Assembly: GCF_900104665.1 (NCBI RefSeq)
Contig: NZ_LT629969.1
Location: forward strand, 310,001-374,000
Source: Traorella massiliensis
Lineage (GTDB): Bacteria > Bacillota_I > Bacilli_A > Erysipelotrichales > Erysipelotrichaceae
Length of the DNA: 64,000 bases
Direction of reading: 5' to 3'
Numbering within the stretch: position 1 is the stretch's first letter; the number at the start of each line of letters is the position of its first letter. The notes under the pieces are model-generated. The model did not search any database and was not told where the DNA came from. It saw nothing but the letters and a program-made list of their open reading frames with translations. Position numbers and translations under genes: made by a program. Shown here piece by piece: positions 1 through 40,916 of this stretch.

Positions 1-20
1 CCTTTGATATCTACCAAAGG
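1..20. other. Small hairpin at window edge
   Basis: Arms CCTTTG and CAAAGG enclose an 8-nt loop at positions 1-6 and 15-20. No T-run follows, so it is not a clear terminator. A related CTTTGG/CCAAAG hairpin occurs at 4127-4156 in front of the third surface gene, so the two may be a shared element preceding each unit. Confidence 0.35.
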
Positions 21-55
21 ATAAGCAATTTTATTTGACAAGGAGGAAAAATACA

Positions 56-2113
56 ATGCAAGCAAAAAGGAAACTGACGGCGTTGCTGCTTTCCCTGTGT
101 ATGGTGTTGGGAGTGCTGCCCATGACCGCTTTTGCGGCGGGTGCGCCGGCTGCTCCGGGAGATTTAAAGCGGGAGTGGACAAACAGCGGTTTGAAAGTCA
201 GCTGGAGCCAGCCGGAACCCATCGGAGAGCTGGAGATCTTTGAGTATGAAGTGTCCCTTTTCGTCGATGAGAATCTAAAGGAGAAAGAAACGGTTCGCCA
301 GGCTACTGACTATACCTTTAAAACGTTTGGGGATTTAACAGAACCCACAAACTTTCGCGTGGAGGTGAAAGCGCGGGAGGCTATTTCCGGCACCGGCGAT
401 CGGGGCAATCCGGCGAGCTTTGATGTGACGGAATGGACTGAGTGGAGCAGCGCGAGCAAAGAGACATTCGTTGAAGACGACTCACCTAAAGTCAACACGG
501 AGATCATTAAGCATTATACGGGAGTTGTAGATGTGGCTTTGCCCGGCAGCGACCAGAAGCTATACAAGGAGGGCATAGAAGCTGCAGATGATGCTGATAT
601 AGAAGCCATAATGGATCTGCTCTATGCCTATTTCGAGGAGAATAAGGCAACGATTCCTGAGCTGGCGGATGTCGCAAAAGCAGACCTGACGACGGAAATG
701 GTTTTGACCAGGATCAAATCGTCGAGAACAGTAGGGTCTATAAACACTGAGGGAAGACCTGTGGTAGTGGTACATGAGGTGGTGGATAAATATTACGATC
801 TCAGGCTGGTATACAAAGAGCAGCACGAGCATGTCTGGGCGGAAGACTGGACCAGCGACGGCACACATCACTGGAAAGCCTGCACGGCAGAGGGCTGCGC
901 CGAAAAAGACCAGTACGGAGTGCATCAGATAGCAAACGGGGTTTGTACGGTGTGCAAGGCTGAAGTAGAAACATCCGGGGTACAGACGTATGCGGTAAAG
1001 GTGAACGGCATCACCGTCACCAGCGCCAACGCCAGCGACATTCTGGGTGATGCCGACGGTGACGGCGCCACGGCGTACTATGATCCGGCGGCCAACACCT
1101 TGACACTGGATAACGCCCAGCTGACATCCAGCGGCTTCGGCGCTGTATGGGCGCAGGAAGAGAACTTTACCCTTGTGCTGAAAGGTGAGAATCAGATTAC
1201 CGGAGAAGGGGACTTCCCTCACTCCGCGGTTTATTCCCACGGGGCTATGACGGTCAAAGGAAACGGAAGCCTGACCACCAGCGGCACCTATTTCGGCCTG
1301 TTTGGCAACAATACCATTACCATTGAAGACGGGGCGTCTGTAGATCTTACCGTTGACTTTTCCAGCGACGAGCAGGATCAGCCATATGCCGCAGTCAGAG
1401 CAATCGGCGGACTGACGGTGGACGGCGCGACGCTGAATGCGAAGAACAATGCAACTCAGGATGCCGGTTTCGGCACTCCGGGCATTAATACTGACCTTAC
1501 GGCGATTAACGGAGCGAAGGTGAATATTTCTTCCGTAAACGATCACGGCATCTGCGGTGATGTCATCGTCAGCGGAGCCGGAACCGTAGTAAATGCCTCT
1601 TCTGCAAGCGGCGAGCACTATGGTATCTTTGCTGGCCAGGAAGATATCTTTGGTGAATTGGGCGGCGATCAGAAGGGGATCTTCACCATCTCCGACGGAG
1701 CGGTTGTCACTGCCAGCGGCGGAAAGGGCGCCATGCGCTGGAAACCTGACTTATCTGGCTACACCGATCCTGTTGTAGCGGCCGGTGATTCTGCTGCGGC
1801 TGAGGAAATTATTGGCGATCCTGCCGGCACAGAGTATCAGAACGAAAAATATGTGCAGGTTCGTTCCTCTTTGGAGCCGGTTGAACCCACTGAGCCAACG
1901 GATCCTACTGACCCGACCACTCCTACCGACCCGACTGAGCCAACCGATCCAGCCAAGCCCGAACAGCAGGGCAAGCCTTCTGGGCAAACAGAAAGCCCGC
2001 AGACCGGCGACAGCAGCGATATGGCGCTGTGGATCGGCCTGATGCTGGCCTCCTGCGGCGGCGTGCTGGGAATGCTGCTTTACAGGCGGAAAAAGGCGGC
2101 GGCCGGGAAATAG
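56..2113 (+). CDS. Cell-wall-anchored surface protein with Fn3-like domain
   Basis: The product is an exported protein of 685 residues. The ATG at 56 is chosen because AAGGAGG at 40-46 precedes it; an in-frame TTG at 35 lies upstream of that site. Residues 1-28 form a Sec signal peptide ending AFAAG. A fibronectin-III-like segment covers about residues 30-130. A His/Cys-rich motif (HEHVWAEDWTSDG, then a CTAEGC and CTVC pair) lies near residues 257-300. It is followed by a beta-rich region of the carbohydrate-binding type common in clostridial surface proteins. The tail has a Pro/Thr/Asp-rich spacer, then SPQTGD, a hydrophobic helix and RRKK, which is a sortase signal variant. No sortase lies in the window. 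Base composition is far richer in GC than the DNA after 7.8 kb. The ligand is unknown. Confidence 0.85.
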   Translation: MQAKRKLTALLLSLCMVLGVLPMTAFAAGAPAAPGDLKREWTNSGLKVSWSQPEPIGELEIFEYEVSLFVDENLKEKETVRQATDYTFKTFGDLTEPTNFRVEVKAREAISGTGDRGNPASFDVTEWTEWSSASKETFVEDDSPKVNTEIIKHYTGVVDVALPGSDQKLYKEGIEAADDADIEAIMDLLYAYFEENKATIPELADVAKADLTTEMVLTRIKSSRTVGSINTEGRPVVVVHEVVDKYYDLRLVYKEQHEHVWAEDWTSDGTHHWKACTAEGCAEKDQYGVHQIANGVCTVCKAEVETSGVQTYAVKVNGITVTSANASDILGDADGDGATAYYDPAANTLTLDNAQLTSSGFGAVWAQEENFTLVLKGENQITGEGDFPHSAVYSHGAMTVKGNGSLTTSGTYFGLFGNNTITIEDGASVDLTVDFSSDEQDQPYAAVRAIGGLTVDGATLNAKNNATQDAGFGTPGINTDLTAINGAKVNISSVNDHGICGDVIVSGAGTVVNASSASGEHYGIFAGQEDIFGELGGDQKGIFTISDGAVVTASGGKGAMRWKPDLSGYTDPVVAAGDSAAAEEIIGDPAGTEYQNEKYVQVRSSLEPVEPTEPTDPTDPTTPTDPTEPTDPAKPEQQGKPSGQTESPQTGDSSDMALWIGLMLASCGGVLGMLLYRRKKAAAGK

Positions 2114-2225
2114 CCCGTCTGCCTGAAACCAAACGGAAAAGCCGGCGGGAAGCGGCGGACGGAAACGGGACTATGTGTCCTGGCCGCCCTTCCCCGGCTG
2201 GACCGGAAAGAAACGGAGGCGACTT

Positions 2226-4103
2226 ATGAAAAAACTGTTTGCGGCGCTGCTGACGCTCTGTATGGTGTTTGGGATGGCCGTCCCGGCCTTTGCGGCCGGA
2301 GATCCCCTTACCATCCGCTTTTACTACGGCGGCGCGGACTACGGCAGATATAAGGAAGGCTGGATTGACGTCGGCAATATTGATACCGGCGCCGGCCGGT
2401 TCTATGCGGCAATAAACTTCGGGGATGAGGAAATTGGAGGGGACATCAATCCTGCGGACAAAAGCATCACCGGCAGCCATGACCTCATCGGTTCAGCGTG
2501 GCTGTATTATGATGTGGAGGTTGCGGACAGCTCCAGCTTCTCCGTTGCGCTCCCCAAGGGTCCGAGCTACCACTACCCCGGCAGCGAATACAGCCCGCCC
2601 GAGACCACCGAGTTTGCCGCATGGGTGGTGAGCGACGGAAACGGCGGGTATAAGGAGCTGGATGGTTCCGTCACGGCGGAGGATGTTCAGAACGCAATCG
2701 TGACGGACGAGGAAGGAAAAAGAGTCGCCGTGATCAAGGCGGCTTTTCCGGCGGTTGTCATAGACAAAAACGCGCTGACCTATGAAGAGACCGGACATCC
2801 GAAATATGCCGTCATCCTGCGAGCCAATGGCGGAACCTTTGCGGAGGATGGCAGCGACCATTTGTATGTGTGCCCGCAGTCGCTGGAATATTCCGCTCTG
2901 AACGACTTTTTCGTGGAGGCATCCTGTCCTAAGCCGTCAAACGGCGATATGGTGTTCGCCGGCTGGTACAAGGACGAGGCCTGCACCGACGGGCCGGTCA
3001 CCTATCTGAACATTAACGATGATTTGAAGGAAGAACCCGCCTATGTCGCGCCCTATGTGCCGATGGATTTGTACGCAAGGTGGGAGCCGGCCGGCTTTGT
3101 GCCGGGCAATACCTCCACGCCGGCGGATGAGCCGGGCGGGCCTTCGGAAAACAATACCCCCGCCCCTTCGGACAACAGTGCCCCCGTCCCTTCGGACGAG
3201 GGAAACAGCAACCTCCCGTTTGCCATCGGCGCGATTGCCGCCATTCTGCTTTTGGGCCTGCTGACTCTGCTGTTCCTGCTGTGGAAGGGACCCGTTACCC
3301 TGAGCTTTTACTACGGCGGCGCGGACTACGGCAGTTACAGGGACGGCCTGGTGAATTTGGGCCGTGTGGATACAAAGGCCGGCAAGCTCCAGGCGGTTTA
3401 CCGCTACCTTGACCCCGAGACAAAAATGTGGAAAACACTGGTCGGGACGATCAATCCGGAGGATAAGAGCATTGACAACGATGACCCGCGGCTCCTGAAG
3501 GGCAAGCTCTATTACAACAGGAAGCCGTTTCTCAGGCTTAAGTTTTCTGTCCCCCTGCCGGATGGTGTGGACTATCACTTCCCTGGCGGCGAGGGCGCCG
3601 AGCCGGTCACCGTAAGCTTTGCCGCATGGATGTTAAAGGACGGAAACGGCGGCTACAAGGCCCTGGAAGATCCCGTCACATCCAAAGCGGTAAAGCCTGC
3701 CGTGGAGACGGAGAAAGTCAAGCGGCGTAAGGTTCTCATCACGGCGGCGTTCCGTTCGGAAATGGCAGATGAGTATGCCCTGAATGACGAGAACGGGAAT
3801 CCCCGGTACGCCGTCAGGCTGCATGCCAACGGCGGGGCTTTTGAAGCGGACGGGACCAATCTGCTGTATATGAAGCCGCGGTCGCTGGAATTTGCAGACC
3901 AGGAGCTTTTCTATGTGGAGGCTACCTGCCTGAAACCGACGAGCAGCGGCAAGGTATTCACCGGCTGGTACAGGGATAAAGCCTGCACCGCCGGCCCGGT
4001 AACAGGGCTTAAAATCCTTGAAGAGCTGAAAGAGCGTCCCGTCAGGGAAGCGCCCTATGCGCCGATGGATCTCTACGCCAAATGGGAGATGCAGGAAAGC
4101 TGA
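2226..4103 (+). CDS. Membrane protein with duplicated InlB-repeat halves
   Basis: The product has 625 residues. The ATG at 2226 follows a GGAGG, and the reading frame opens upstream without a site. Residues 1-24 are a signal peptide ending AFAAG. The first half begins TIRFYYGGADYG and ends with a Listeria-Bacteroides (Flg_new/InlB B) repeat marked by FAGWYKDEAC and DLYARWE. A Pro/Ser-rich linker and a strong helix (about residues 340-362, IGAIAAILLLGLLTLLFLL) follow. After the helix the whole module repeats: TLSFYYGGADYG to FTGWYRDKAC and DLYAKWE. By the positive-inside rule one copy would be outside and one inside, or the helix is a false anchor. It has no sorting signal. It lies between two sortase-substrate genes of the same GC-rich island. 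Function unknown. Confidence 0.75.
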   Translation: MKKLFAALLTLCMVFGMAVPAFAAGDPLTIRFYYGGADYGRYKEGWIDVGNIDTGAGRFYAAINFGDEEIGGDINPADKSITGSHDLIGSAWLYYDVEVADSSSFSVALPKGPSYHYPGSEYSPPETTEFAAWVVSDGNGGYKELDGSVTAEDVQNAIVTDEEGKRVAVIKAAFPAVVIDKNALTYEETGHPKYAVILRANGGTFAEDGSDHLYVCPQSLEYSALNDFFVEASCPKPSNGDMVFAGWYKDEACTDGPVTYLNINDDLKEEPAYVAPYVPMDLYARWEPAGFVPGNTSTPADEPGGPSENNTPAPSDNSAPVPSDEGNSNLPFAIGAIAAILLLGLLTLLFLLWKGPVTLSFYYGGADYGSYRDGLVNLGRVDTKAGKLQAVYRYLDPETKMWKTLVGTINPEDKSIDNDDPRLLKGKLYYNRKPFLRLKFSVPLPDGVDYHFPGGEGAEPVTVSFAAWMLKDGNGGYKALEDPVTSKAVKPAVETEKVKRRKVLITAAFRSEMADEYALNDENGNPRYAVRLHANGGAFEADGTNLLYMKPRSLEFADQELFYVEATCLKPTSSGKVFTGWYRDKACTAGPVTGLKILEELKERPVREAPYAPMDLYAKWEMQES

Positions 4104-4110
4104 AAACGCA

Positions 4111-4126
4111 GAAGGGATATCCCTTC
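4111..4126 (+). terminator. Palindromic hairpin after surface gene
   Basis: GAAGGG-ATAT-CCCTTC is a perfect palindrome eight bases after the stop at 4103, followed by TTT. It is short, and a second hairpin follows directly. Confidence 0.5.
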
Positions 4127-4156
4127 TTTATGCTTTGGTATTCACCAAAGCATAAA
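4127..4156 (+). terminator. Second hairpin, 12-bp perfect stem
   Basis: Arms TTTATGCTTTGG (4127-4138) and CCAAAGCATAAA (4145-4156) are perfectly complementary with a 6-nt loop. There is no long T-run beyond the arm. With the palindrome just before it, it probably separates the second and third surface genes. Confidence 0.45.
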
Positions 4157-4304
4157 GAACTTTAACTGCGGCAAAGAAGGTTATTCGTTCCGCCCTGGCT
4201 GCCTGAACCGGCGCACCGGGGAACGGATGGCATAGAAATACAGAAAAAAAGGCGGTGATACCCCAAAGAGAATTATCAAACCGTTTATTCACATGAATGT
4301 TATC

Positions 4305-4358
4305 TTGAAAGGAGAAAAATCAGTTATGAAATTGAAAGGAGAAAAATCAGTTATGAAA
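4305..4358 (+). repeat. Tandem 27-bp duplication of RBS and start codon
   Basis: Two exact 27-bp copies (4305-4331 and 4332-4358) each carry AAAGGAG and an ATG (4326 and 4353). Both starts are in the same frame, because 27 is a multiple of three. The third surface gene therefore has two complete initiation sites in series. Confidence 0.9.
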
Positions 4359-6182
4359 TTGAAGCGAAAACTGCTTGCAGGACTGCTGACGCTTTGTATG
4401 GCTGTTGGAATGGCTGTGCCGGCATTTGCGGCGAACGGCCCCTCGTCCGGGGACATGAGCGCCGCATGGGTGCAGCTGTATGATAGCAGTGTAGAAGAAC
4501 CCGATGGCAGCTATTTTGGTTATGTACTTTATAGCAACGGCGGCGAGGCTGACACGGTGGAGGGCGCTGTCTATGACAAGGCTACCAACACCATCACCCT
4601 GACAAACTACAACCACCCGGAAATGACCCTTGCCACCAACGAGATGGGCGACGATTTGAAGCTTCATCTGGTGGGTGACAATCATATCGCCGAACTGGTT
4701 GTATGGGGCTTCGGCTGGGGCGGCAATCTGGAAATTACCGGAGACGGCTCCCTGACCATCAATGAAAACAAAACGTCTCAGACTGCGGCGATCCGCTTTA
4801 TGGCCGAGGGAACACAGGGTCTGCTCAAGGTCGGCTCAAACGCTTCTGTGACAGCGTATAAGAGCGCAGGTGAAAACACTTATTCTGCGGCCTTTGTATC
4901 GACAACATCCTCAACCCTTCCCTTCACAGGTAATCTGGAAACAGAGCTTGTCCTGACCGCCAATTCCGGCATCGAGGGGGAGACCACCGAATGGGAAAAT
5001 GTCATATATGAAGATGGATTTGTTGCTCAAAACTGGAAGGTTCTCACCAAGGGCGAGGACGGAAAGAAATACGGCGTTAATTACGGAACAATCTACACCG
5101 GCAGCGATTTAACAAACGGCAAGCCTGTGGGCTATATCCACGAGCTGGTGAAGGTGGAAGGACTTCCTAGCCAAAATGAATATCTTGCCGTTCAAATTGC
5201 TACCGTTGACGGACTTGAAAAGGACGTTCTGCCTGAGGGATATACCGACTCAGGGGAAACCATCACCGCCAAAACAGGCGATATCAGCTCTATGACAGTG
5301 CTGATCAAGGACGGGCAGAGATTTTATTGGGGAGCAGACCCGAATCAATCCCAGTGGTTGGTCTATCAGACCGCCGTTGATGACGTAACTGCGGAGGATT
5401 GGGGTCAGACAACCTTGACAAAAATTGTAGTGCCTGTGGCTGGAGAAGGCGTCAGCGGTGCGACCAAAGAAGATATTCCGGCAGGCTATACCACCAACGT
5501 GGTAAAGACCGGCATGTATAGCTACTACTGCACCAATGATGTGATCAAAGTATCCCCGTCCGGGACTTCTACCGATCCGGGCACTGATCCTGGAACAAAA
5601 CCTGGTGAGGATACTGGCGTCAAAGATCTGACTGCTTCCGAAACCGGCGTTTCCATCTCCCTGACCGACGGCGTGCCAGAGGGAGCAGAGCTTTCTGCTG
5701 ACACCATCGCGCAGGAAAGCGTGTTGTCAAGCCGTCCGGAACTGAAGGAACAACTGCCGGGCCTGTTGTCTATTTACGACATCAGTGTTAGAAAAGACGG
5801 TAAAGCTCTGGAAATCAGGGATAACCCCATGACGGTCAAAATCCCGATGAACGACCACCTGAAGGGCTACAAATACTATCAGGCGGTATATCTGGGCGAA
5901 GAGCTGGAACGCTTTGACGCGGTGGCGGAAGGCGACTTCCTGGTGTTTGAGACTACCCATCTGAGCCAGTATGCTATCCTTGGCTCCAACACACCGTTTT
6001 CAACCAGTACGGTTCAGGACGGAGAGCAGACCGGCGCGGGCGATCAGTCTTCCGATACAACTAGTCCGCAGACCGGGGACGGCAGCAACATGATGCTGTG
6101 GATTGGTCTTCTGGCTGCATCCGGAGCCGGCGTCTATGGCATGACGCTTTACAGCAGAAAGAAAAAGGAACAGAATATATAA
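4353..6182 (+). CDS. Cell-wall-anchored surface protein
   Basis: The product is 609 residues from the ATG at 4353. In-frame starts at 4326 (also with a ribosome site) and 4293 would add 9 or 20 residues. Starting at 4353 gives a normal signal peptide: MKLKRKLL, a hydrophobic core, then AFAAN. The middle is a beta-rich region resembling the carbohydrate-binding repeats of the first protein of this island (ITGDGSLTINENK). Residues about 430-560 contain a region like those preceding stalks in clostridial surface proteins (LTASETGVSISLTDGVPEG). The end has SPQTGDGSN, a hydrophobic helix and RKKK, a sortase signal. The gene is GC-rich like its neighbours and unlike the backbone. Ligand unknown. 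Confidence 0.82.
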   Translation: MKLKRKLLAGLLTLCMAVGMAVPAFAANGPSSGDMSAAWVQLYDSSVEEPDGSYFGYVLYSNGGEADTVEGAVYDKATNTITLTNYNHPEMTLATNEMGDDLKLHLVGDNHIAELVVWGFGWGGNLEITGDGSLTINENKTSQTAAIRFMAEGTQGLLKVGSNASVTAYKSAGENTYSAAFVSTTSSTLPFTGNLETELVLTANSGIEGETTEWENVIYEDGFVAQNWKVLTKGEDGKKYGVNYGTIYTGSDLTNGKPVGYIHELVKVEGLPSQNEYLAVQIATVDGLEKDVLPEGYTDSGETITAKTGDISSMTVLIKDGQRFYWGADPNQSQWLVYQTAVDDVTAEDWGQTTLTKIVVPVAGEGVSGATKEDIPAGYTTNVVKTGMYSYYCTNDVIKVSPSGTSTDPGTDPGTKPGEDTGVKDLTASETGVSISLTDGVPEGAELSADTIAQESVLSSRPELKEQLPGLLSIYDISVRKDGKALEIRDNPMTVKIPMNDHLKGYKYYQAVYLGEELERFDAVAEGDFLVFETTHLSQYAILGSNTPFSTSTVQDGEQTGAGDQSSDTTSPQTGDGSNMMLWIGLLAASGAGVYGMTLYSRKKKEQNI

Positions 6183-6249
6183 CATTTTACGGCCGCCATC
6201 AGACAGATGGCGGCTGTTTTAGAAGGAAGGTGGGACTATCAAACGAATT

Positions 6250-31921: not shown

Positions 31922-31988
31922 ACATCATGATACAACTGTTGTATATACATATAAAATATGATATTCTTTGAACATAATAGGAGCTATT

Positions 31989-32570
31989 ATGTGTGAAAAG
32001 GCAGTCATTTATATTATAAAAAATAATCATCAAAACAACTCATATAGAAATATTTGTCAATCATTTCTACATTATGCCAAGATGAATGGGATCAAGATTG
32101 ATAAAGACTTGGAAATGGTTAAAGACAGTTATGGAAAACCTTCTTTTGTATATTATCCAAAAATTCATTTTTCAATAAGTCATAGTGGCGATTGCTGGGC
32201 ATGTGTTTTTTTTAAAGAAAAGATAGGTCTTGATATTGAAAAAGAAAAAAAGATCGATCACTTGAAACTTGCAAAACGTTTTTTTCATCCTGATGAAGCA
32301 GCAATTGTTCATGATTCTGATTCTTTTTTTCGCTTGTGGACATTAAAAGAGAGTTATGCAAAATATATCGGAAAAGGCATTGATGAGAATTTTTCTTCAA
32401 TTTCTATTCTTCCAAATCATAAAAAAAATATCACTGGACATCAGGATCTGTCATGGAATAAAAACGGGGTTTTCTTTTATTCGCTTATATTAGAAAAAGG
32501 TTATTTTTTATCTGTTTGTTCATCTAGGGAAATGGAATTAGAGATATTAATAAAAAAAGATGAGAGGTGA
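31989..32570 (+). CDS. Sfp-type 4'-phosphopantetheinyl transferase
   Basis: The product is 193 residues from ATG 31989, which has TAGGAG in front; a start at 31968 is less likely. The Mg/CoA site shows IGLDIEKEKKID and the later LWTLKESYAKYIGKG, both diagnostic of the Sfp group. It moves phosphopantetheine from CoA to a conserved Ser of carrier proteins. The only carrier gene in the window is at 37617, in the dlt-like cassette 5 kb downstream, so activation of that carrier is the likely role. Dlt operons normally rely on a host transferase encoded elsewhere. Confidence 0.9.
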   Translation: MCEKAVIYIIKNNHQNNSYRNICQSFLHYAKMNGIKIDKDLEMVKDSYGKPSFVYYPKIHFSISHSGDCWACVFFKEKIGLDIEKEKKIDHLKLAKRFFHPDEAAIVHDSDSFFRLWTLKESYAKYIGKGIDENFSSISILPNHKKNITGHQDLSWNKNGVFFYSLILEKGYFLSVCSSREMELEILIKKDER

Positions 32571-32574
32571 TAAA

Positions 32575-33264
32575 ATGAAACAGAATATATTAATTGCGGA
32601 AGACGATGCAGATATTGTTGAATTACTGACTCTTTATTTAGACAGTGCTGATTTTTGTGTTTGCGTAGCGAACAACGGTATAGAAGCTTTAGAAATCATG
32701 AAACATGATAAAATATCGTTGGCATTAGTGGATATTATGATGCCTGAAATGAATGGTTATGAATTCATCAAAGAAGTCCGCCAGATCAGTGATATACCGA
32801 TCGTCATCATATCGGCACGAAATCAGGATGCGGATAAGATCATGGGACTGGATATCGGTGCAGATGCCTATATCTCTAAGCCTTTTAATCCTTTAGAAGT
32901 TATTGCCTATATCAAAGCGCTATTAAGACGCTGTGTTAAGAATACAGAGGAAAAAGAAGTCTTAAAGCTTGGTGAACTTGAATTAGATATGGAGAAGTTT
33001 ATTCTTCGAAAAAATGGCTTAGTCCTCCCTTTAACATTAACTGAATTAAAAATCGTTGCTAAGATGATGAAAACTCCTGAGCGGGTATATACGAAAGCCC
33101 AGCTATATGAATGTATCAATGGAGAACTCTATGAAAGTGATGATAATACAATGATGGTTCATATTTCTAATATTCGTTCTAAGATCGAGGAGGATCCTGC
33201 CAATCCGCAATATATCAAGACAGTGAGGGGGTTAGGTTATAAAATTGAAAACAAAAAGAAATAA
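32575..33264 (+). CDS. OmpR/PhoB-family response regulator
   Basis: The product is 229 residues from ATG 32575 (GAGGTGATA in front). The receiver has the acidic pair ED at residues 9-10, phosphoacceptor Asp 53 in ALVDIMMPEM and Lys in YISKPF. The winged-helix domain follows (LTLTELKIVAKMMKTPERVY, VRGLGYKI). It starts five bases after the transferase gene and overlaps the kinase gene by 20 bases, so all three are one unit. The adjacent dlt-like cassette is the likely target. Confidence 0.93.
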   Translation: MKQNILIAEDDADIVELLTLYLDSADFCVCVANNGIEALEIMKHDKISLALVDIMMPEMNGYEFIKEVRQISDIPIVIISARNQDADKIMGLDIGADAYISKPFNPLEVIAYIKALLRRCVKNTEEKEVLKLGELELDMEKFILRKNGLVLPLTLTELKIVAKMMKTPERVYTKAQLYECINGELYESDDNTMMVHISNIRSKIEEDPANPQYIKTVRGLGYKIENKKK

Positions 33265-34828
33265 AAGTATCAGCTTTGTAACGATCTGTGTTTTTCATTT
33301 CTTCTTATTTTCATTTGTTCTGTTGCTTTTATATATGCTGACGAATTATTCAATAAACAAGCGTCTGGAAAATGCGTTTCCTTCTATAGATTCTCTTTTA
33401 GAATATCAGGATGATCTGATGCATGATGCATATTATCAGATACCGATTCACAAATATCAGGACTGTGATTTTATTATCTATGATGAGAAAGGAAATGACC
33501 TATATTCTACTAGTAAAAATATTAGGAATCAGCTTAGCAGCAATGATTTGATGCTGATTCATGGATATGATGCAGATACGTTTTACTCTTTGTCAATTGG
33601 TTTTGATCAAATAGAACAAAAGAAAAGATATTATATTTCATTTTATCAGTATGGAGAAGATGCTTCGCTTTCTCTGCTTGATGATTGTGTATTAGATGAG
33701 AATTATCAAATCATTGATGGGAATTTATTTTCAGACAGAAGCTATCTTACAAAACAAGAGTTAAATCTAATTCAAGGCCGTTTTGATTCAGAAAGAGATA
33801 TTGAAAAGTATGAATATGTAAGTGTAAACGATGAAAAAAGGATCCTTGTCTTTATATCGCCTCATATCAATGAAAACTCTTATGAAAGGGTACTGAATGA
33901 AGCCAATCAGCTTTGGTTATTTGCAGTACCGCTTATTTTTCTGATGATTATAGTTCAAAGCTATTTCTTTTCAAGAAGAGTTAAAAATTCAATGAAACAA
34001 TTAGATGAATCAATTGTTTCATATCAGAGCGGTAATATCGTTGATGCAGATGAAAAAAAGATGCCTCTTGAATTTAAAAGGACATTAGATAAATTTTCAG
34101 ATTTAAGAGATCACCTTGAAGAAGCAAAAAAACAGAAAGATCAATTATATAAAGAAAAACAACAACTAATCGTAGATATTTCTCATGACTTGAAAACTCC
34201 TTTGACCGTAATTCAAGGATATGCGAAAGCATTCATAGATGGAAAAATTGATAAAAAAGATACGGATAAGTATATGAATGCCATTATGAATAAAGCTCAG
34301 CTGGCAACAGATTTACTCAATACTTTGTTTGAATATGTGCAAATGGAACATCCTGGATACCAGGCAAATTTAGAAGAAGGCGATCTGGGAGAATTCATAA
34401 AGGCTTTTCTGGCAAAAAAATATAGTGAAATTGAAGATAAAGAATTTGTTCTCAATGTAGAAATTGAAGATAAGAAAATAATGACTTTATTTGATAAAAA
34501 GCTGATGACACGTCTTTTAGATAATCTGCTCAGCAATGCCCTTCGTTATAATCCTAGAGGAACTGCCATTGATGTCTCTTTAACAGAATTAGAAAAAGAA
34601 ATGATTCTGATAGTTGCGGATGATGGAGTTGGAATCCCTCAAGAAATTGTTCATAAGGTATTCGAACCATTTGTTACAGGAAGTGTGGCCCGTACAAGCG
34701 GCAGCGGCAGCGGATTAGGATTATCAATCGTTAAGAAAATCGTTGAGCTTCATCATGGTCACATTGAACTGCTTTCAGGAAATAAAACTTCTTATGCGAC
34801 TGAGATAAGAATTACTTTATCTAAATAA
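33245..34828 (+). CDS. Sensor histidine kinase
   Basis: The product is 527 residues from a TTG start at 33245 inside the regulator gene; no ATG is available before the first membrane helix. Helices at about 11-33 and 222-241 enclose an extracellular domain of about 190 residues that I do not recognise. A HAMP-like linker, the phosphoacceptor His 314 (DISHDLKTPLT), the N box (LLDNLLSNALRYNPRG) and G boxes (DDGVGIP, GSGLGLSIVKK) follow. It is a complete kinase, paired with the regulator just before it and ended by a terminator. Confidence 0.92.
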   Translation: MKTKRNKSISFVTICVFHFFLFSFVLLLLYMLTNYSINKRLENAFPSIDSLLEYQDDLMHDAYYQIPIHKYQDCDFIIYDEKGNDLYSTSKNIRNQLSSNDLMLIHGYDADTFYSLSIGFDQIEQKKRYYISFYQYGEDASLSLLDDCVLDENYQIIDGNLFSDRSYLTKQELNLIQGRFDSERDIEKYEYVSVNDEKRILVFISPHINENSYERVLNEANQLWLFAVPLIFLMIIVQSYFFSRRVKNSMKQLDESIVSYQSGNIVDADEKKMPLEFKRTLDKFSDLRDHLEEAKKQKDQLYKEKQQLIVDISHDLKTPLTVIQGYAKAFIDGKIDKKDTDKYMNAIMNKAQLATDLLNTLFEYVQMEHPGYQANLEEGDLGEFIKAFLAKKYSEIEDKEFVLNVEIEDKKIMTLFDKKLMTRLLDNLLSNALRYNPRGTAIDVSLTELEKEMILIVADDGVGIPQEIVHKVFEPFVTGSVARTSGSGSGLGLSIVKKIVELHHGHIELLSGNKTSYATEIRITLSK

Positions 34829-34831
34829 TAT

Positions 34832-34860
34832 GCCATGCGATTTATATGCATGGCTTTTTC
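34832..34860 (+). terminator. Terminator after histidine kinase
   Basis: GCCATGC and GCATGGC (34832-34838 and 34848-34854) pair perfectly and run into TTTTTC. It separates the regulatory genes from the dlt-like cassette. Confidence 0.88.
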
Positions 34861-34936
34861 TTTACAAAAATTAAGGTTAGCTGAATATTATATGAAGATA
34901 AACCAGATAAGATAGTGGTATGAAAAGGAGGAACCT

Positions 34937-36442
34937 ATGCAAAATGTATTAAAATATTTAGAAAATAGTACTCGAAAATATCCTTATAAGATAGCTGTCA
35001 TTGATGAAAAGCAATCTTATACTTATACAAAGCTTTCAAAGATAAGCAAGCAGATAGGAAGCGTATTGGCAAATTTAAAGAAGCATAACGAACCGGTCGC
35101 CGTCGTTATGGAAAAAAATGCAGATACCTTAGCAGCCTTTTTAGGAATTGTTTATTCAGGAAATTTTTACTGTTTGTTGAATCCTAAGTTACCATTATAT
35201 CGCTTAAACCAGATCCAAGAAATATTACAGGCATCGGTTGTCATTACAGATCATGAAAATGAGGAATTGGCAAAAAATATCTTTCCTCAAGCGCTTATCT
35301 TAAAAATGGAAGATTTAAAAGAAGCGGCTATTCAAGAAAAGCGATTGCAAGAAATCCAAAATCTGTCTTTAGATACGGATCCTTTATATGTTAATTTTAC
35401 TTCAGGATCAACAGGAAATCCTAAAGGAGTTGTTGTCAGTCATGGCAATGTCATTGATTTTATTGATGAATTTTGTGAAATCTTTCAGTTTAAAAATGAT
35501 GAGATCTTTGGAAATCAGGCTCCTTTTGACTTTGATGTATCAGTCAAAGATATTTACTCTTCTTTGAAAATGGGAGCTACGATTCTAGTGATTCCTAAAC
35601 ATCTGTTTTCACAGCCTTCAGCTCTGCTGGATTTCATATGTGAACATCAAGTAACCGTAATGGTATGGGCCGTATCTGCTTTATGTCTATTAACATCTTT
35701 CCATGCCTTGGATTATAAGGTACCTCATACAGTAACAAAAGTTCTTTTCAGTGGGGAAACAATGCCTTTAAAACATCTTCAGATATGGATGGAACATCTT
35801 CAGAAAGCTACATTTGTAAATTTATATGGGCCTACTGAAATTACTTGTAACTGTACGTATCATATCATTGATCGCAGGAATTGTTATGACCAAGGTCTTC
35901 CTATTGGACGAGCCTTTCCTAATGAAAAAGTTTTTTTATTAGATGATCAAGGTAAAGAAGTGAAAGAAGCTATGAAAACAGGTGAAATCTGTGTGGCTGG
36001 AAGAGCTTTGGCATTAGGTTATTATAATGATGAAAAACAAAGTGCTGAAAAGTTTATTCAAAACCCACTGCATCATCATTATCATGAACGTGTTTATCTG
36101 ACGGGTGATTTAGGAAAATATGGTGAGGATGGAAATCTATATTTTTGTGGACGTAAAGATTTTCAAATTAAACATATGGGACATCGTATCGAATTAGAAG
36201 AAATAGAAAAAAATATGGATTCGATCGCAGGAGTCGATAGATGTATTTGTGTTTATGATGAAAAGAAAAAAAGACTATATGCTTACTATACGGGAAGCTG
36301 TGACAAAAAGAAGCTCATGATTCAGATGAGAGAAAAACTTCCTGCCTATATGATACCGAATACGATAAAAAAGGTAGAGGAATTGAAATTAAATAAGAAT
36401 GGTAAAATAGATCGTAAAATTTATAGAAAGGATTTGTCATGA
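34937..36442 (+). CDS. DltA-like amino-acid:carrier protein ligase
   Basis: The product has 501 residues, as in DltA. The AMP site is TSGSTGNPKG (155-164), the later motif NLYGPTEITC (295-304), and the C-terminal Lys 490 in NKNGKIDRK. The Asp that holds the substrate amine in DltA has a match in NQAPFDFDVSVKDIY (Asp 200). The Cys that favours D-alanine in DltA (FLFCGE) is Ser 272 here (VLFSGE). The enzyme should adenylate an amino acid or related amine and load it onto the carrier encoded at 37617, but probably not D-alanine. AAAGGAGG precedes the start, and the next gene overlaps by four bases. Confidence 0.85.
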   Translation: MQNVLKYLENSTRKYPYKIAVIDEKQSYTYTKLSKISKQIGSVLANLKKHNEPVAVVMEKNADTLAAFLGIVYSGNFYCLLNPKLPLYRLNQIQEILQASVVITDHENEELAKNIFPQALILKMEDLKEAAIQEKRLQEIQNLSLDTDPLYVNFTSGSTGNPKGVVVSHGNVIDFIDEFCEIFQFKNDEIFGNQAPFDFDVSVKDIYSSLKMGATILVIPKHLFSQPSALLDFICEHQVTVMVWAVSALCLLTSFHALDYKVPHTVTKVLFSGETMPLKHLQIWMEHLQKATFVNLYGPTEITCNCTYHIIDRRNCYDQGLPIGRAFPNEKVFLLDDQGKEVKEAMKTGEICVAGRALALGYYNDEKQSAEKFIQNPLHHHYHERVYLTGDLGKYGEDGNLYFCGRKDFQIKHMGHRIELEEIEKNMDSIAGVDRCICVYDEKKKRLYAYYTGSCDKKKLMIQMREKLPAYMIPNTIKKVEELKLNKNGKIDRKIYRKDLS

Positions 36443-37620
36443 AAGAAAAAGTAATACAAGAACTTCTTCAAAATTATAAGACACCTCTTTATGTATTTGA
36501 TATTCATATTCTTAAAGAAAGAATCGCCTATTTACGCAGATGTTTAAATGCAGACCTGTGTTATGCCGTTAAGGCAAATACTTTTATCTTAAAAGAGATA
36601 TGCGATGATATCGATCGTTTCGAAGTCTGTTCAGAAGGTGAGTTAAGAATCTGTGAAAGCATGCAACTGCCAATGTCAAAGATCGTTCTTTCAGGTGTAT
36701 ATAAAAATGTCAAGGTCATACGTGAACTTATAAAAAAGAAAAAGGGAATGGGTATTTTTACTATAGAGTCGATGAGACAGTATGAGCTGTTAAAAGAAGC
36801 GGCCCAACAAAATCATGTTTCAATAAGTCTTTTATTAAGGCTTACCAGTGGAAATCAATTTGGATTAAATGAAGAAGAAATATTTGAATTGATCCAGGAT
36901 GCATCAAACATTCCGTATATTGAAATCAAAGGCATCCAGTATTTTTCGGGAACGCAAAAAAAATCATTAAAGAAACTGGCAAGAGAAATCAGCTATTTGG
37001 ATAACTTTCTTCTTTCTTTAAGCGATAAGACAGGATTTGTGATTCAAGAACTGGAATTTGGTCCTGGTTTTCCGATTTCATATTTTGAGTCAGATGATTA
37101 TGATGAAGAAGCATTTTTAAAAGGTTTTTCAGATATATTGGAAAGCATGACTTATAAAACTGTAATAACTTTAGAACTAGGCCGAAGCATTGCTGCTTCG
37201 TGTGGCTATTATCTAACCAGAGTCGTTGATATGAAAATGAATAAAAACCAGCGATATGCTATTGTAGACGGAGGCATTCATCATCTTGTCTATTATGGTC
37301 AATCCATGGCGATGAAGCTTCCAAAGTATGAGATGTATCCGTCTAGAAATAGTTCAAAGGGTCATTCCTGGAATATTTGCGGTTCACTTTGTACAATTAA
37401 TGATATTTTAGTAAAACAGCTCACGGTTGCAGATTTAACGTATGGCGATGTGCTTATCTTTAAGAATACCGGAGCTTACTGTATGACAGAGGGAATTTCT
37501 CTATTTTTAAGCAGAGATTTACCGGCAGTGATTAAAATAGATGAAGATGGCAGCTTCAGCTGCATACGTGAAGTTATTCGTACAGATTTAATAAATATGC
37601 CATCTAAGAAAGGAGAATGA
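36439..37620 (+). CDS. PLP fold-III amino-acid decarboxylase-like enzyme
   Basis: The product has 393 residues with the barrel-plus-beta layout of LysA, ornithine decarboxylase and BtrK. PLP Lys 45 lies in YAVKAN. The phosphate site is FGPGFPISY, and ELGRS (246-250) replaces the usual EPGRS. The cross-dimer catalytic Cys is probably Cys 318 (CGSLCTIND), and GAYCM matches the GAY motif. It overlaps the ligand-activating gene before it and the carrier gene after it (ATGA each side). Standard dlt operons have no such enzyme. BtrK of butirosin synthesis decarboxylates an amino acid while it is bound to a carrier protein, a possible precedent. It could instead make the free monomer or be a racemase. 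Confidence 0.8.
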   Translation: MKEKVIQELLQNYKTPLYVFDIHILKERIAYLRRCLNADLCYAVKANTFILKEICDDIDRFEVCSEGELRICESMQLPMSKIVLSGVYKNVKVIRELIKKKKGMGIFTIESMRQYELLKEAAQQNHVSISLLLRLTSGNQFGLNEEEIFELIQDASNIPYIEIKGIQYFSGTQKKSLKKLAREISYLDNFLLSLSDKTGFVIQELEFGPGFPISYFESDDYDEEAFLKGFSDILESMTYKTVITLELGRSIAASCGYYLTRVVDMKMNKNQRYAIVDGGIHHLVYYGQSMAMKLPKYEMYPSRNSSKGHSWNICGSLCTINDILVKQLTVADLTYGDVLIFKNTGAYCMTEGISLFLSRDLPAVIKIDEDGSFSCIREVIRTDLINMPSKKGE

Positions 37621-37850
37621 ACATGGAAAGATTATATGCAATTTTAGAAGATATCCAACCTGATGTAGATTATAAAACTTGTGTCACGCTAGTAAAGGAT
37701 CATATATTAGATTCTTTGTCGATTCTATCACTTGTGGCGGAAATTGAGGATGAATTTGATATTACCGTTCCTGCTGTTGAGATCATACCCGATAATTTCA
37801 ATTCAGCTGATGCTATCTGGGCGATGATTTTGCGTCTTGAGGAAAATTAA
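37617..37850 (+). CDS. DltC-like carrier protein
   Basis: The product has 77 residues, as in DltC (about 78). The phosphopantetheine Ser is Ser 33 in ILDSLSILSLVAEIEDEF, and the next helix FDITVPAVEIIPDNF is typical. The start ATGA overlaps the stop of the PLP enzyme; an ATG at 37623 is possible too. It should carry the activated amino group as a thioester from the ligase to the membrane acyltransferase. The transferase gene at 31989 would convert it to the holo form. Confidence 0.9.
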   Translation: MNMERLYAILEDIQPDVDYKTCVTLVKDHILDSLSILSLVAEIEDEFDITVPAVEIIPDNFNSADAIWAMILRLEEN

Positions 37851-37851
37851 G

Positions 37852-39444
37852 ATGTCATCTTATTTTTCAATTGAATATCTTGCTTTATTTTTACCGGCGG
37901 TATTTATCTTTTACAATTTGATGCCAAAGAAATATCGCTGGCTTCTTTTATTACTTGCAAGCTACTTGTTTTTTTGGCTGATCAGCGGCAAACTGATTCT
38001 TTATCTGATATCCGCAACATGTATCGTTTATATTATAGCTTTACATTTAGAAAAGATACAGTCGCAGCGGAATCAATTGTTAGAAAAGAAAGAGCGTTCA
38101 GAACGTAAAGCTATCCGTATATTTTATCAGAAAAAGCAACGAAAGCTTGTTACAGCAGGAGTTTTGATCCTGATTGGCATATTGGCAGTTTTGAAGTATT
38201 CAGGTTTTATAGGAATCAATATTCAATCTATATTCTCTTTATTACATCTTCCTATAACCATTCAAATTCCTTCATTTGTTTTACCCATCGGTATTTCTTT
38301 TTATACCTTACAGGCAGTATCTTATCTTTTAGATGTTTATCGGGAAAAGATCAAGCCGGAATGGAATTTTGGAAAGCTGGCACTTTATATGAGTTTTTTC
38401 TTAACAATTATTGAAGGCCCTATTTGCCGATATTCTGATATGTCTATTCAGTTGTATGAAGGTAGGAAAGTATCGTGGAATCAGTTTCTTTATGGAATGC
38501 AGCGTATTCTTTATGGGCTGATGAAAAAAATCGTTATTGCTGACCGTTTAAATCTTTTTATTAAAACGATTTTTCATGACTATAACAGTTATGATGGCGG
38601 TATGATTGCTTTTGGGGCTTTACTTTATACTTGTCAGCTATATATGGAATTTTCAGGTACGATGGATATTGTCATTGGAAGTGGCGAGATATTCTCTTTT
38701 AAAATTTTGGAGAATTTCAGACAGCCTTTTTTCTCAAAAACAATTTCCGAATTCTGGCAGAGATGGCATATTTCTTTAGGCCTTTGGTTTAAAGATTATA
38801 TCTTTTATCCATTATCCATGTCTGATCCTTTGAAAAAAATGACTTCATGGGCCAGAAAGAAATTTGGAAATCATTATGGTCCCCTTATGAGTGGTTCAAT
38901 TGCCTTATTTTGTGTTTGGCTGGCGAATGGTTTCTGGCATGGTTCAGGATGGAATTATATTTTCTTTGGTTTATATCATTTCACGCTGATCTTAGGCGGT
39001 AATTTGATAGAACCTGTTTCTAATCGATTATGTTCTTATTTTAAAATAAAAAGAGAAAGTATTCTATATCACTTTTTTCAAATCGTTAGGACAGGCATCC
39101 TGGTTGTTATTGGAGAATTGTTTTTTAGAGCGCAAGGGCTACGTGCTGGTATTCATATGTTTATAAAAATATGCACCAATTTCTCACTGGTTTCATTTAC
39201 TGATTCGACTGTTTTTTCAATTGGCATGGATCGCCAGGATTTTATTATCGTAGTAATTGCAGTTATGACGGTATTTGTGATTAGTATCATAAAAGAAAAG
39301 GGCTTATCGGTCAGAGAACATATTTCTAAAGAGCCTATTGTCTTAAGATGGAGCTTGTATTATATGCTGATTTTATTTATTGTCGTTTTTGGTGCCTATG
39401 GAACGGGATATGTTCCAGTAGATCCAATATATGCTAATTTTTAG
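37852..39444 (+). CDS. MBOAT acyltransferase (DltB/AlgI type)
   Basis: The product is 530 residues from ATG 37852, two bases after the carrier stop; the frame opens at a TTG at 37837. About ten membrane helices are visible. The MBOAT catalytic region reads EFWQRWHISLGLWFKDYIFY, and the second His is in ANGFWHGSGWNY. It is longer than DltB (about 400) and nearer the size of AlgI. It should take the thioester from the carrier and pass the group across the membrane to an envelope polymer. The gene position equals that of dltB. Confidence 0.88.
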   Translation: MSSYFSIEYLALFLPAVFIFYNLMPKKYRWLLLLLASYLFFWLISGKLILYLISATCIVYIIALHLEKIQSQRNQLLEKKERSERKAIRIFYQKKQRKLVTAGVLILIGILAVLKYSGFIGINIQSIFSLLHLPITIQIPSFVLPIGISFYTLQAVSYLLDVYREKIKPEWNFGKLALYMSFFLTIIEGPICRYSDMSIQLYEGRKVSWNQFLYGMQRILYGLMKKIVIADRLNLFIKTIFHDYNSYDGGMIAFGALLYTCQLYMEFSGTMDIVIGSGEIFSFKILENFRQPFFSKTISEFWQRWHISLGLWFKDYIFYPLSMSDPLKKMTSWARKKFGNHYGPLMSGSIALFCVWLANGFWHGSGWNYIFFGLYHFTLILGGNLIEPVSNRLCSYFKIKRESILYHFFQIVRTGILVVIGELFFRAQGLRAGIHMFIKICTNFSLVSFTDSTVFSIGMDRQDFIIVVIAVMTVFVISIIKEKGLSVREHISKEPIVLRWSLYYMLILFIVVFGAYGTGYVPVDPIYANF

Positions 39445-39453
39445 GAGGAAATC

Positions 39454-40404
39454 ATGAAAGTAAAATATATTGTGCGTTCCTTTCTTTTTATGACAGGATT
39501 ATTGATATGTTTGGGCACTGCTTCTATAGTAGTATTTCCTAAGAATAATACGATGGAATTTGGAATGAGGGATGTGAATGCCAATGGAATATTAGGAGAG
39601 AATGATAATACGATTGATGTTTTAGTGCTTGGTGACAGTGAGTCGTATTCTTCTATTTCTCCAATGACAATATGGAATGAAACAGGTATCACTTCTTATG
39701 TTTGTGGTACTTCAGCTCAACAATTGTATGAATCTATGAATTTTTTGAAACAGGCTTTACAAAATCAAAAACCTAAGATCGTTATTTTAGAAACAAATGC
39801 TATTTATAGAAATTTTTCACCAGTTAAAATGATTGAAAATGGTTTTAATCAGCTATTTCCAATTTTTCAGTATCATAATCGCTGGAAATCAATCTTGCCT
39901 GTAGATTTTGGCGGTTCGATTGAATATACATGGCGTGATGATTTAAAAGGTTTCAAATATAGTAATAAGATTGAAGGAACGAATGCCCAGGATTATATGA
40001 GCAAAACTGATAAGATTGCAGAAATTTCAGAACTAAATCGTCAGTATGTAAAAGAAATGGCGAAGCTTTGTGAAGAAAATGATGCGAAATTTATTCTTGT
40101 AAGTACACCTAGTACAGTAAATTGGAATTATGCACGTCATAACGGCATTTGTTTATTGGCAGATGAATATGAGTTAGATTATTATGACTTAAATCTTTTA
40201 AGTAAGGAGATTTTGATTGATTGGAGTCAAGATACCCGTGATAAAGGAGATCATTTGAATTATTATGGTGCTTTTAAAGTGTCAAAATATCTGGCCCACT
40301 TTTTAAAAGAAAAATATGCTTTATCGGATCATCGCCAAGAAAAAGAATATCAAAGCTGGAATGAATCTTATCAAAGATATCAAACGATCATCGCTCAAAA
40401 TTAG
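39454..40404 (+). CDS. SGNH-type protein in DltD position
   Basis: The product has 316 residues: one N-terminal membrane helix (about 7-27), then an extracellular domain. The nucleophile motif is VLVLGDSESYSSISP (Ser 62), and the Asp/His pair is in DKGDHLNYYGAFK. This matches SGNH proteins such as DltD and AlgX, which help transfer acyl groups to polymers outside the cell. It is shorter than DltD (about 420). AGGAGG precedes ATG, nine bases after the MBOAT stop. It is the last gene of the cassette. Confidence 0.82.
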   Translation: MKVKYIVRSFLFMTGLLICLGTASIVVFPKNNTMEFGMRDVNANGILGENDNTIDVLVLGDSESYSSISPMTIWNETGITSYVCGTSAQQLYESMNFLKQALQNQKPKIVILETNAIYRNFSPVKMIENGFNQLFPIFQYHNRWKSILPVDFGGSIEYTWRDDLKGFKYSNKIEGTNAQDYMSKTDKIAEISELNRQYVKEMAKLCEENDAKFILVSTPSTVNWNYARHNGICLLADEYELDYYDLNLLSKEILIDWSQDTRDKGDHLNYYGAFKVSKYLAHFLKEKYALSDHRQEKEYQSWNESYQRYQTIIAQN

Positions 40405-40439
40405 TAAAATATGATATAATAAGTCTAATGGAGGAAATT

Positions 40440-40916
40440 ATGATCTATATTTATAATGCAGGTCCGATGTTTACAGAAGCGGATATTCATCAAAGAAGAA
40501 TTGAAGGAAGAAAAATGAAAGAACTGCTGGAAAATAATCATCAGGAATATTTTCTGGCGAATCCGATTGATTTGCCATTAGACAATACGAAACCATTGAC
40601 ATCTGAAAAAATATTCTTAACGGATTATGAGCATGTCAGTAAAGCAAATGTTTTCTTTTTTGAGCTGGCTAGCGGTGATGCAGGAACTTATGTAGAATTA
40701 GGAAATGCGATTGAAAAGCTGATGAGCGGAAAAGAAATTCGTATGTATCCTGTATTTAACGATATTCGTTTACAGCGTAATGGAATGAGCGGTGTTGATT
40801 GTCCGATAGGCTTTAACTCTTATCTGGTTGGCTGTTTAAGAGCTAATAAAATTGATATTTATATGAGCTTTGATGAAGCTTTAAAAGCATTTAAAAATGA
40901 TTTTGATTTGAAGTAA
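40440..40916 (+). CDS. Nucleoside 2-deoxyribosyltransferase
   Basis: The product is 158 residues from ATG 40440 with TGGAGG in front; the frame also has an ATG at 40428. Motifs are YNAGPMFTEADIHQR, FLANPIDLP, ELASGDAGTYVELGNAIE (catalytic Glu) and the late GFNSYLVGCL. The enzyme exchanges bases on deoxyribonucleosides in purine and pyrimidine salvage. It follows the cassette by 35 bases with its own likely TATAAT (40415-40420), so it may be separate. It fits scavenging of DNA released by the exported nuclease, though that link is only inferred. Confidence 0.85.
   Translation: MIYIYNAGPMFTEADIHQRRIEGRKMKELLENNHQEYFLANPIDLPLDNTKPLTSEKIFLTDYEHVSKANVFFFELASGDAGTYVELGNAIEKLMSGKEIRMYPVFNDIRLQRNGMSGVDCPIGFNSYLVGCLRANKIDIYMSFDEALKAFKNDFDLK

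Follow-up and report, generated by a model that had tools for sequence, protein, structure and literature searches.

A Dlt-like gene cassette with a built-in pyridoxal-phosphate enzyme in Traorella massiliensis: a candidate system for placing a carrier-tailored amino-acyl group on an envelope polymer

In many Gram-positive bacteria, D-alanylation sets how the surface is charged and how well cationic peptides are resisted. In the Dlt system (DltA, DltB, DltC, DltD and DltX), a single operon encodes an adenylation ligase, a carrier protein, a membrane-bound O-acyltransferase (MBOAT) and an SGNH-family protein, and the acyl group is relayed through Ser, Tyr and Ser. Here we describe a cassette of five + strand genes at positions 34937-40404 of a 64,000-nucleotide stretch of the Traorella massiliensis genome (the window: bases 310001-374000 of contig 9; genome 2.6 Mb). 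It shares these genes, and probably this relay, with Dlt but has an extra pyridoxal 5'-phosphate (PLP) enzyme of fold type III and another ligase pocket; DltX is missing, and the candidate shuttle Tyr is on the tail of the MBOAT instead. Every cassette score that we tested was below the Dlt cut-offs.

Several other systems resemble it in part. In the vicenistatin (VinN-VinO-VinL) and fluvirucin B2 (FlvN) pathways, an adenylation enzyme charges a stand-alone carrier with an acidic amino acid, and in the former a PLP enzyme decarboxylates the carrier-bound acid; VinN loads the acid and not its decarboxylated product (PMC11284099). A VinO-like enzyme from a vicenistatin-type cluster (L135) is a fold-III relative of the cassette enzyme, with ~27% identity. 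VinN and FlvN differ from the cassette ligase in that they feed a polyketide synthase, belong to a different clade and use a different residue to bind the carboxylate. In butirosin biosynthesis, BtrK decarboxylates a glutamyl carrier (BtrI) to a 4-aminobutyryl carrier, a further precedent for the chemistry proposed below (PMC7857480), but the product goes to an aminoglycoside and BtrK is 23-24% identical to the cassette enzyme. The exosortase A-associated trio (TIGR03098, TIGR03099) has the same three-gene order of ligase, PLP enzyme and carrier, but here the cassette scores 207 vs 592 and 157 vs 478 bits, both below cut-off. PatA-PatB pairs likewise combine an MBOAT with a catalytic His and a C-terminal Y-x-x-F tail with a paired SGNH protein; their donor is acetyl-CoA, whereas a carrier-bound amino-acyl group is proposed for the cassette. 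A ligase-PLP-carrier trio of the exosortase A-associated type lies beside glycosyltransferase genes in Sinorhizobium meliloti (L132:4313-7442), where load-then-decarboxylate chemistry may serve exopolysaccharide; no MBOAT-SGNH pair was seen in L132. No paper on the cassette itself was found in the open-access literature, which is weak evidence of absence as subscription papers were mostly outside the search. As judged from the protein sequences, the cassette would join a Dlt-like envelope modification to the carrier-bound decarboxylation known from antibiotic pathways. Its features are as follows.

34925-34931, + strand: ribosome-binding site AAGGAGG 5' of the ligase gene, read from the sequence
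34937-36442, + strand: adenylation ligase, DltA-like but not DltA, 501 aa (Pfam AMP-binding, 219 bits)
36439-37620, + strand: predicted fold-III PLP decarboxylase, 393 aa (Pfam Orn_Arg_deC_N plus Orn_DAP_Arg_deC)
37617-37850, + strand: carrier protein, 77 aa, with Ser33 in a DSL motif (PP-binding 23 bits, over the cut-off of 20.8)
37852-39444, + strand: MBOAT acyltransferase, 530 aa, with His363 and a PIYANF tail containing Tyr527 (Pfam MBOAT)
39454-40404, + strand: SGNH transferase, 316 aa, with an N-terminal membrane helix and Ser62, Asp263 and His267 (AlphaFold2 fold)

The genes overlap or are separated by no more than 9 bases. The ligase and PLP genes overlap by 4 bases (ATGA), as do the PLP and carrier genes; the MBOAT ATG at 37852 is one base past the carrier stop and the SGNH start is 9 bases past the MBOAT gene. 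An initial annotation, made from the sequence alone, had described five such closely packed genes, and its coordinates and family assignments were confirmed. It had also suggested searching other genomes for the same gene order, and the five genes recur together wherever a locus has room for them. A PLP homologue of at least 41% identity was found in 19 of 146 related genomes (T. massiliensis included). In all 19 it sits between, and contiguous with, the ligase and carrier genes, and the MBOAT and SGNH genes lie beside this trio, in either order, wherever the contig reaches. The next-best PLP matches among the 146 relatives were at most 28% identical, a level at which LysA proteins fall. Among 84,980 species genomes scanned, 569 stretches encoding PLP relatives were found; the best 80, chosen by similarity and not an even sample of the 569, include Agathobaculum, Scybalocola, Catenibacillus, Pseudoflavonifractor, Acetobacterium, Enorma and Collinsella, and the closest named relative is an uncultured Traorella (L050). 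Of 99 loci examined in total, which include a few repeats of one genome and one record filed as phage, all five genes were present in each of the 94 with enough sequence, and the 5 incomplete loci all stop at a contig edge. The carrier gene appeared to be missing in 15 loci, which a six-frame search traced to open reading frame picking or to a carrier-last order. The carrying taxa are Erysipelotrichales, of which Traorella is a member, Clostridia and Coriobacteriia. The five-gene arrangement is not due to chance and is inherited as a unit.

Three Clostridia loci (L117, L120 and L121) have a doubled form, ligase-PLP-MBOAT-SGNH-carrier-MBOAT-SGNH, with two transferase pairs and one carrier. The phage-filed record (Bacteriophage sp.; L131; MT836540.1, 11231-12409), which comes from human faeces and is marked unverified, carries the cassette with a PLP enzyme 51% identical to ours and is probably a bacterial fragment. 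A search of plasmids for near-matches gave none, and a protein search of plasmids gave far relatives only.

The ligase scored 297.5 bits against the DltA family TIGR01734 (cut-off 559.85). No ligase passed this cut-off among the 146 relatives, 60 class members (the two sets overlap) and 20 further carriers of the cassette, whilst the control ligases from B. subtilis and Lactococcus exceeded it. In the ligase tree, canonical DltA stands apart from a clade (support 100/99) of the PLP-cassette ligases and two sister types, the PLP-cassette ligases themselves forming one clade (93/91). With anchors set by hand on conserved motifs, the pocket in GrsA numbering is D235 V236 K239 V278 L299 S301 L322 C330 N331 K517 (DVKVLSLCNK), equivalent to D200 V201 K204 V243 L270 S272 L296 C304 N305 K490 in the cassette ligase; canonical DltA has DLMVLCTVAK, a difference at 6 of the 10 positions. 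Across 95 PLP cassettes the pocket varies only at positions 278 and 299, with Lys239 (K204) in 95/95 and K490 likewise invariant; Asp200 and Lys204 are kept in 98 of 99 ligases, the shortfall being a gap. In non-ribosomal peptide synthetase codes, Lys239 occurs for glutamate and Gln239 for glutamine. A review lists DAQDLGVVDK (Glu/Gln) and DLTKVGHVGK (Asp/Asn) (PMC12283262). The cassette code has no known match. The invariant Lys239 would fit a substrate with a free second carboxylate.

Three pocket classes were recovered when a sister ligase, rather than a PLP enzyme, was used to query 392 genomes. The 14 ligases adjoining a PLP gene have DVK..[S]LCNK, the 3 adjoining an aspartate-racemase-family gene have DAKCAGLGMK and the 6 with neither partner have SMxYxALDIK, without Lys239; pocket class agrees with partner gene in 23/23 cassette ligases. 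One further ligase from this search (L217, DAKSFVLGVK) lies outside any cassette. Because two PLP-less ligases from outside the 392-genome sample, L148 (on a short contig, DAKTTSLGVK) and L163 (with a GNAT gene, DAKLTALVDK), carry Lys239 with neither a racemase nor a PLP gene, this residue probably marks an acid substrate and not the PLP gene as such. In the racemase type, the racemase-family gene is directly 5' of the ligase and replaces the PLP gene (L171:5895-6677, L172:7603-8316, L173:5619-6374 and L197). Two of three of these racemases were above the cysteate racemase cut-off, and the cassettes are candidates for a system attaching a D-acidic amino acid. The third type (L159-L162 and L165-L168, also L164, L169, L170 and L210) has neither a PLP nor a racemase gene, lacks Asp235, the normal amino-group binder, is often found 3' of a seryl-tRNA synthetase gene and may use a substrate other than an alpha-amino acid. 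The seryl-tRNA synthetase gene was not used as a substrate clue and was counted as neighbourhood.

The PLP enzyme has the fold, PLP Lys and catalytic Cys of the alanine racemase (AR)-fold decarboxylases, all of which conserve the Cys (PMC7857480). The PLP Lys45, Cys318, Asp322 and Tyr347 are kept in 99/99 cassette enzymes. The best match to the AlphaFold2 model (pLDDT 86) was BtrK (7ru7, Foldseek 1.5e-30), the nearest solved structure, with a Z score of 38.2; LysA structures were tied with it at 38.1. Against the LysA family TIGR01048 the enzyme scored 170.9 bits (cut-off 297.9). The far end of diaminopimelate is held in LysA by the CESGD and IRPS/P motifs. Both are absent from the cassette enzymes, which instead have CTxND and FLSRxLP, resembling the CTPxD and FLxxxxP of BtrK, SbnH, the L135 VinO-like enzyme and the exosortase-type enzyme. 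A loop of ~15 residues before QFG (the lid loop) has also been lost, which may open the active site to the carrier arm. In the PLP tree all cassette enzymes form one clade (100/100) on a long branch whose sister group is not fixed. LysA was ruled out as the identity of this enzyme by score, motifs and tree, and a racemase by the catalytic Cys. Its motifs appear to be those that mark decarboxylases acting on carrier-bound or conjugated amino acids (BtrK, VinO).

The remaining genes have the residues of an acyl relay. The carrier Ser is kept in 98/98 cassettes, and the carrier (22.2 vs 52.35 bits) and MBOAT (125.3 vs 375 bits) fall below the DltC and DltB cut-offs, respectively. The MBOAT catalytic His is found in 96/97 (the shortfall is a gap) and the Y-x-x-F tail in 108 of 111 MBOATs. 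In DltX and PatA the acyl group is borne by the Tyr of the FxYxxF acyl-shuttle motif (PMC12148441); relative to that motif, PIYANF has Pro and not Phe at the first position. There is no room for a DltX gene within 34937-40404, where the longest gap is 9 bases. The SGNH gene gave no Pfam or NCBIfam match, but its AlphaFold2 model (pLDDT 95) has an SGNH fold, with Z scores of up to 13.9 (PatB, 12.3) and DltD (6o93) among the Foldseek matches at 1.2e-4. Its Ser62, Asp263 and His267 are conserved, Ser and His being present in 93/94 (a gap accounts for the shortfall). The pair therefore has the MBOAT His, C-terminal tail and SGNH Ser-Asp-His expected of an MBOAT-SGNH acyltransferase.

We consider it somewhat probable overall that the cassette makes an amino-acyl group by decarboxylation on the carrier and attaches it to an envelope polymer. 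In this scheme an Sfp-like phosphopantetheinyl transferase would prime the carrier, and the ligase would activate the side-chain carboxyl of a dicarboxylic amino acid, most likely Asp or Glu, and load it on the carrier, with Lys204 holding the free alpha-carboxylate of the substrate. A PLP decarboxylase requires a free carboxylate beside the amine; as the side-chain carboxyl would be used by the ligase, the alpha-carboxylate would stay free for the PLP enzyme, which would strip it on the carrier to give a beta-alanyl or 4-aminobutyryl thioester. The MBOAT would then transfer the amino-acyl group to its own Tyr527 at the outer face, and the SGNH enzyme would hand it on to a hydroxyl group on a teichoic-type (polyol-phosphate) polymer. 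Like D-alanylation, this would leave an ester with a positive charge, but its amine would stand at a greater distance from the ester bond. Much of this had been anticipated by the initial annotation, which proposed a dlt-like system using a different amino acid, drew the parallel with BtrK, and had the amino acid loaded, decarboxylated (on the carrier or beforehand) and moved to an envelope polymer. The D-alanine pocket is indeed absent and the scores are below the Dlt cut-offs; the PLP enzyme has BtrK as its nearest structure and shares motifs with it and not with LysA. Comparison gives the core idea good support (the pocket Lys, the BtrK/VinO signature, the acyl-relay residues and some teichoic-acid neighbours).

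These neighbours also bear on the acceptor. In L040 the cassette is 3' of three CDP-glycerol glycerophosphotransferase-family genes and an acyltransferase gene, and in L037 it is beside one glycerophosphotransferase-family gene, an IspD/TarI-like cytidylyltransferase and an epimerase; no teichoic-acid genes were near the cassette in the other loci scanned for neighbours. The T. massiliensis genome has four CDP-glycerol glycerophosphotransferase-family genes ~300 kb away (C9:37570-43218). The acceptor is likely a teichoic-type polymer, with peptidoglycan or capsule as a possible alternative.

The alternative that survives best is that the PLP enzyme acts on a free amino acid (Asp to beta-alanine, or Glu to 4-aminobutyrate), the product of which is then activated by the ligase. 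LysA and other relatives use free amino acids, and an operon would serve this route equally. However, the product would have a single carboxylate, leaving no clear role for a Lys239 that is invariant and shared with the racemase cassettes, and the enzyme has neither the lid loop nor the motifs that LysA-type enzymes have for small free substrates. We regard this route as unlikely, though worth keeping in mind. Decarboxylation on the carrier is favoured over decarboxylation beforehand because a one-carboxylate substrate would make the invariant Lys239 hard to explain. Rather less likely still is that the same logic applies to another acid (2-aminoadipate, diaminopimelate or cysteate), so that the attached group would be longer or different: the pocket code without a known match and the cysteate racemase scores of the sister racemases would allow this, but Asp and Glu are the simplest choices, and FlvN/VinN and BtrK are direct precedents for them. 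We find it improbable that the PLP enzyme racemises or epimerises the acid, whether loaded or free, for attachment of a D-acidic amino acid; the sister cassettes do have an aspartate-racemase-family gene beside the ligase and fold III includes racemases, but Cys318 is universal in the cassette enzymes and their nearest relatives are all decarboxylases. An ordinary D-alanylation operon with a bystander PLP gene such as LysA is very improbable, for although Dlt families are among the best matches of the ligase, carrier and MBOAT, the gene trio is fixed across many genera, the ligase has its own clade and a pocket unlike that of DltA, and the PLP enzyme lacks the LysA motifs; a canonical dlt operon was rejected on scores and pocket.

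Several points weigh against on-carrier decarboxylation of a side-chain-loaded acid and transfer to a teichoic-type polymer. As the PLP-cassette ligases are one clade, the counts are not independent and the covariation of pocket and partner may reflect few events. Lys239 would also suit ordinary activation of the alpha-carboxyl of Glu, and the sequence does not reveal which carboxyl is activated; VinN binds the carboxylate otherwise, via an Arg near position 330. The cassettes of the racemase type show that decarboxylation is not needed for an acid to be used. Lastly, the T. massiliensis cassette is not itself adjacent to teichoic-acid genes.

Upstream of the cassette the window has the following features.

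31968-32570, + strand: Sfp-like phosphopantetheinyl transferase, the probable carrier primer (Pfam ACPS, 57.6 bits)
32560-33264, + strand: response regulator, with possible control of the cassette (Pfam)
33245-34828, + strand: histidine kinase, partner of the response regulator (Pfam HisKA and HATPase)
34832-34860, + strand: terminator-like hairpin (34832-34854) plus T-run, 3' of the histidine kinase gene and 5' of the cassette (consensus scan)

The hairpin has 8 pairs, 5 of them G-C, and separates the transferase and two-component genes, to which the initial annotation did not refer, from the ligase gene; sites of this kind are about as common in shuffled sequences. An Sfp-like phosphopantetheinyl transferase gene also adjoins the cassette in L032, L033 and L124, and a two-component pair lies within 5.5 kb of it in 31 of 59 well-flanked loci. 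Close 3' of the cassette, a nucleoside-deoxyribosyltransferase-like gene (40428-40916) was seen elsewhere only in the nearest relative (L032) and was rejected as a cassette part on that ground. Large secreted surface proteins are encoded at window positions 1-6200; the G+C content is 56% in the first 4 kb and 47% in the next 4 kb, against 31-41% in the remainder, and this G+C-rich start is a candidate recent acquisition or assembly join. Elsewhere in the genome, neither a second DltA-like ligase nor a second fold-III PLP enzyme was detected. The cassette enzyme is the sole fold-III PLP decarboxylase-like protein found, and therefore no LysA was detected; the organism may depend on external lysine.

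The tested carriers of the cassette have no canonical DltA. A broader proposal, to which we give an even chance, is that gut Clostridia, Erysipelotrichia and Coriobacteriia without canonical DltA share a widespread, modular Dlt-like family that decorates teichoic-type polymers with groups other than D-alanine: one branch would attach beta-alanyl or 4-aminobutyryl esters, by on-carrier decarboxylation of a side-chain-loaded acid, and the racemase branch a D-acidic amino acid. The pocket codes offer a tool for sorting hundreds of loci that are possibly labelled D-alanine ligase or diaminopimelate decarboxylase. If the proposal is true, it would represent a second chemistry for the same job, in which the amino acid is tailored on the carrier, new to envelope biology.

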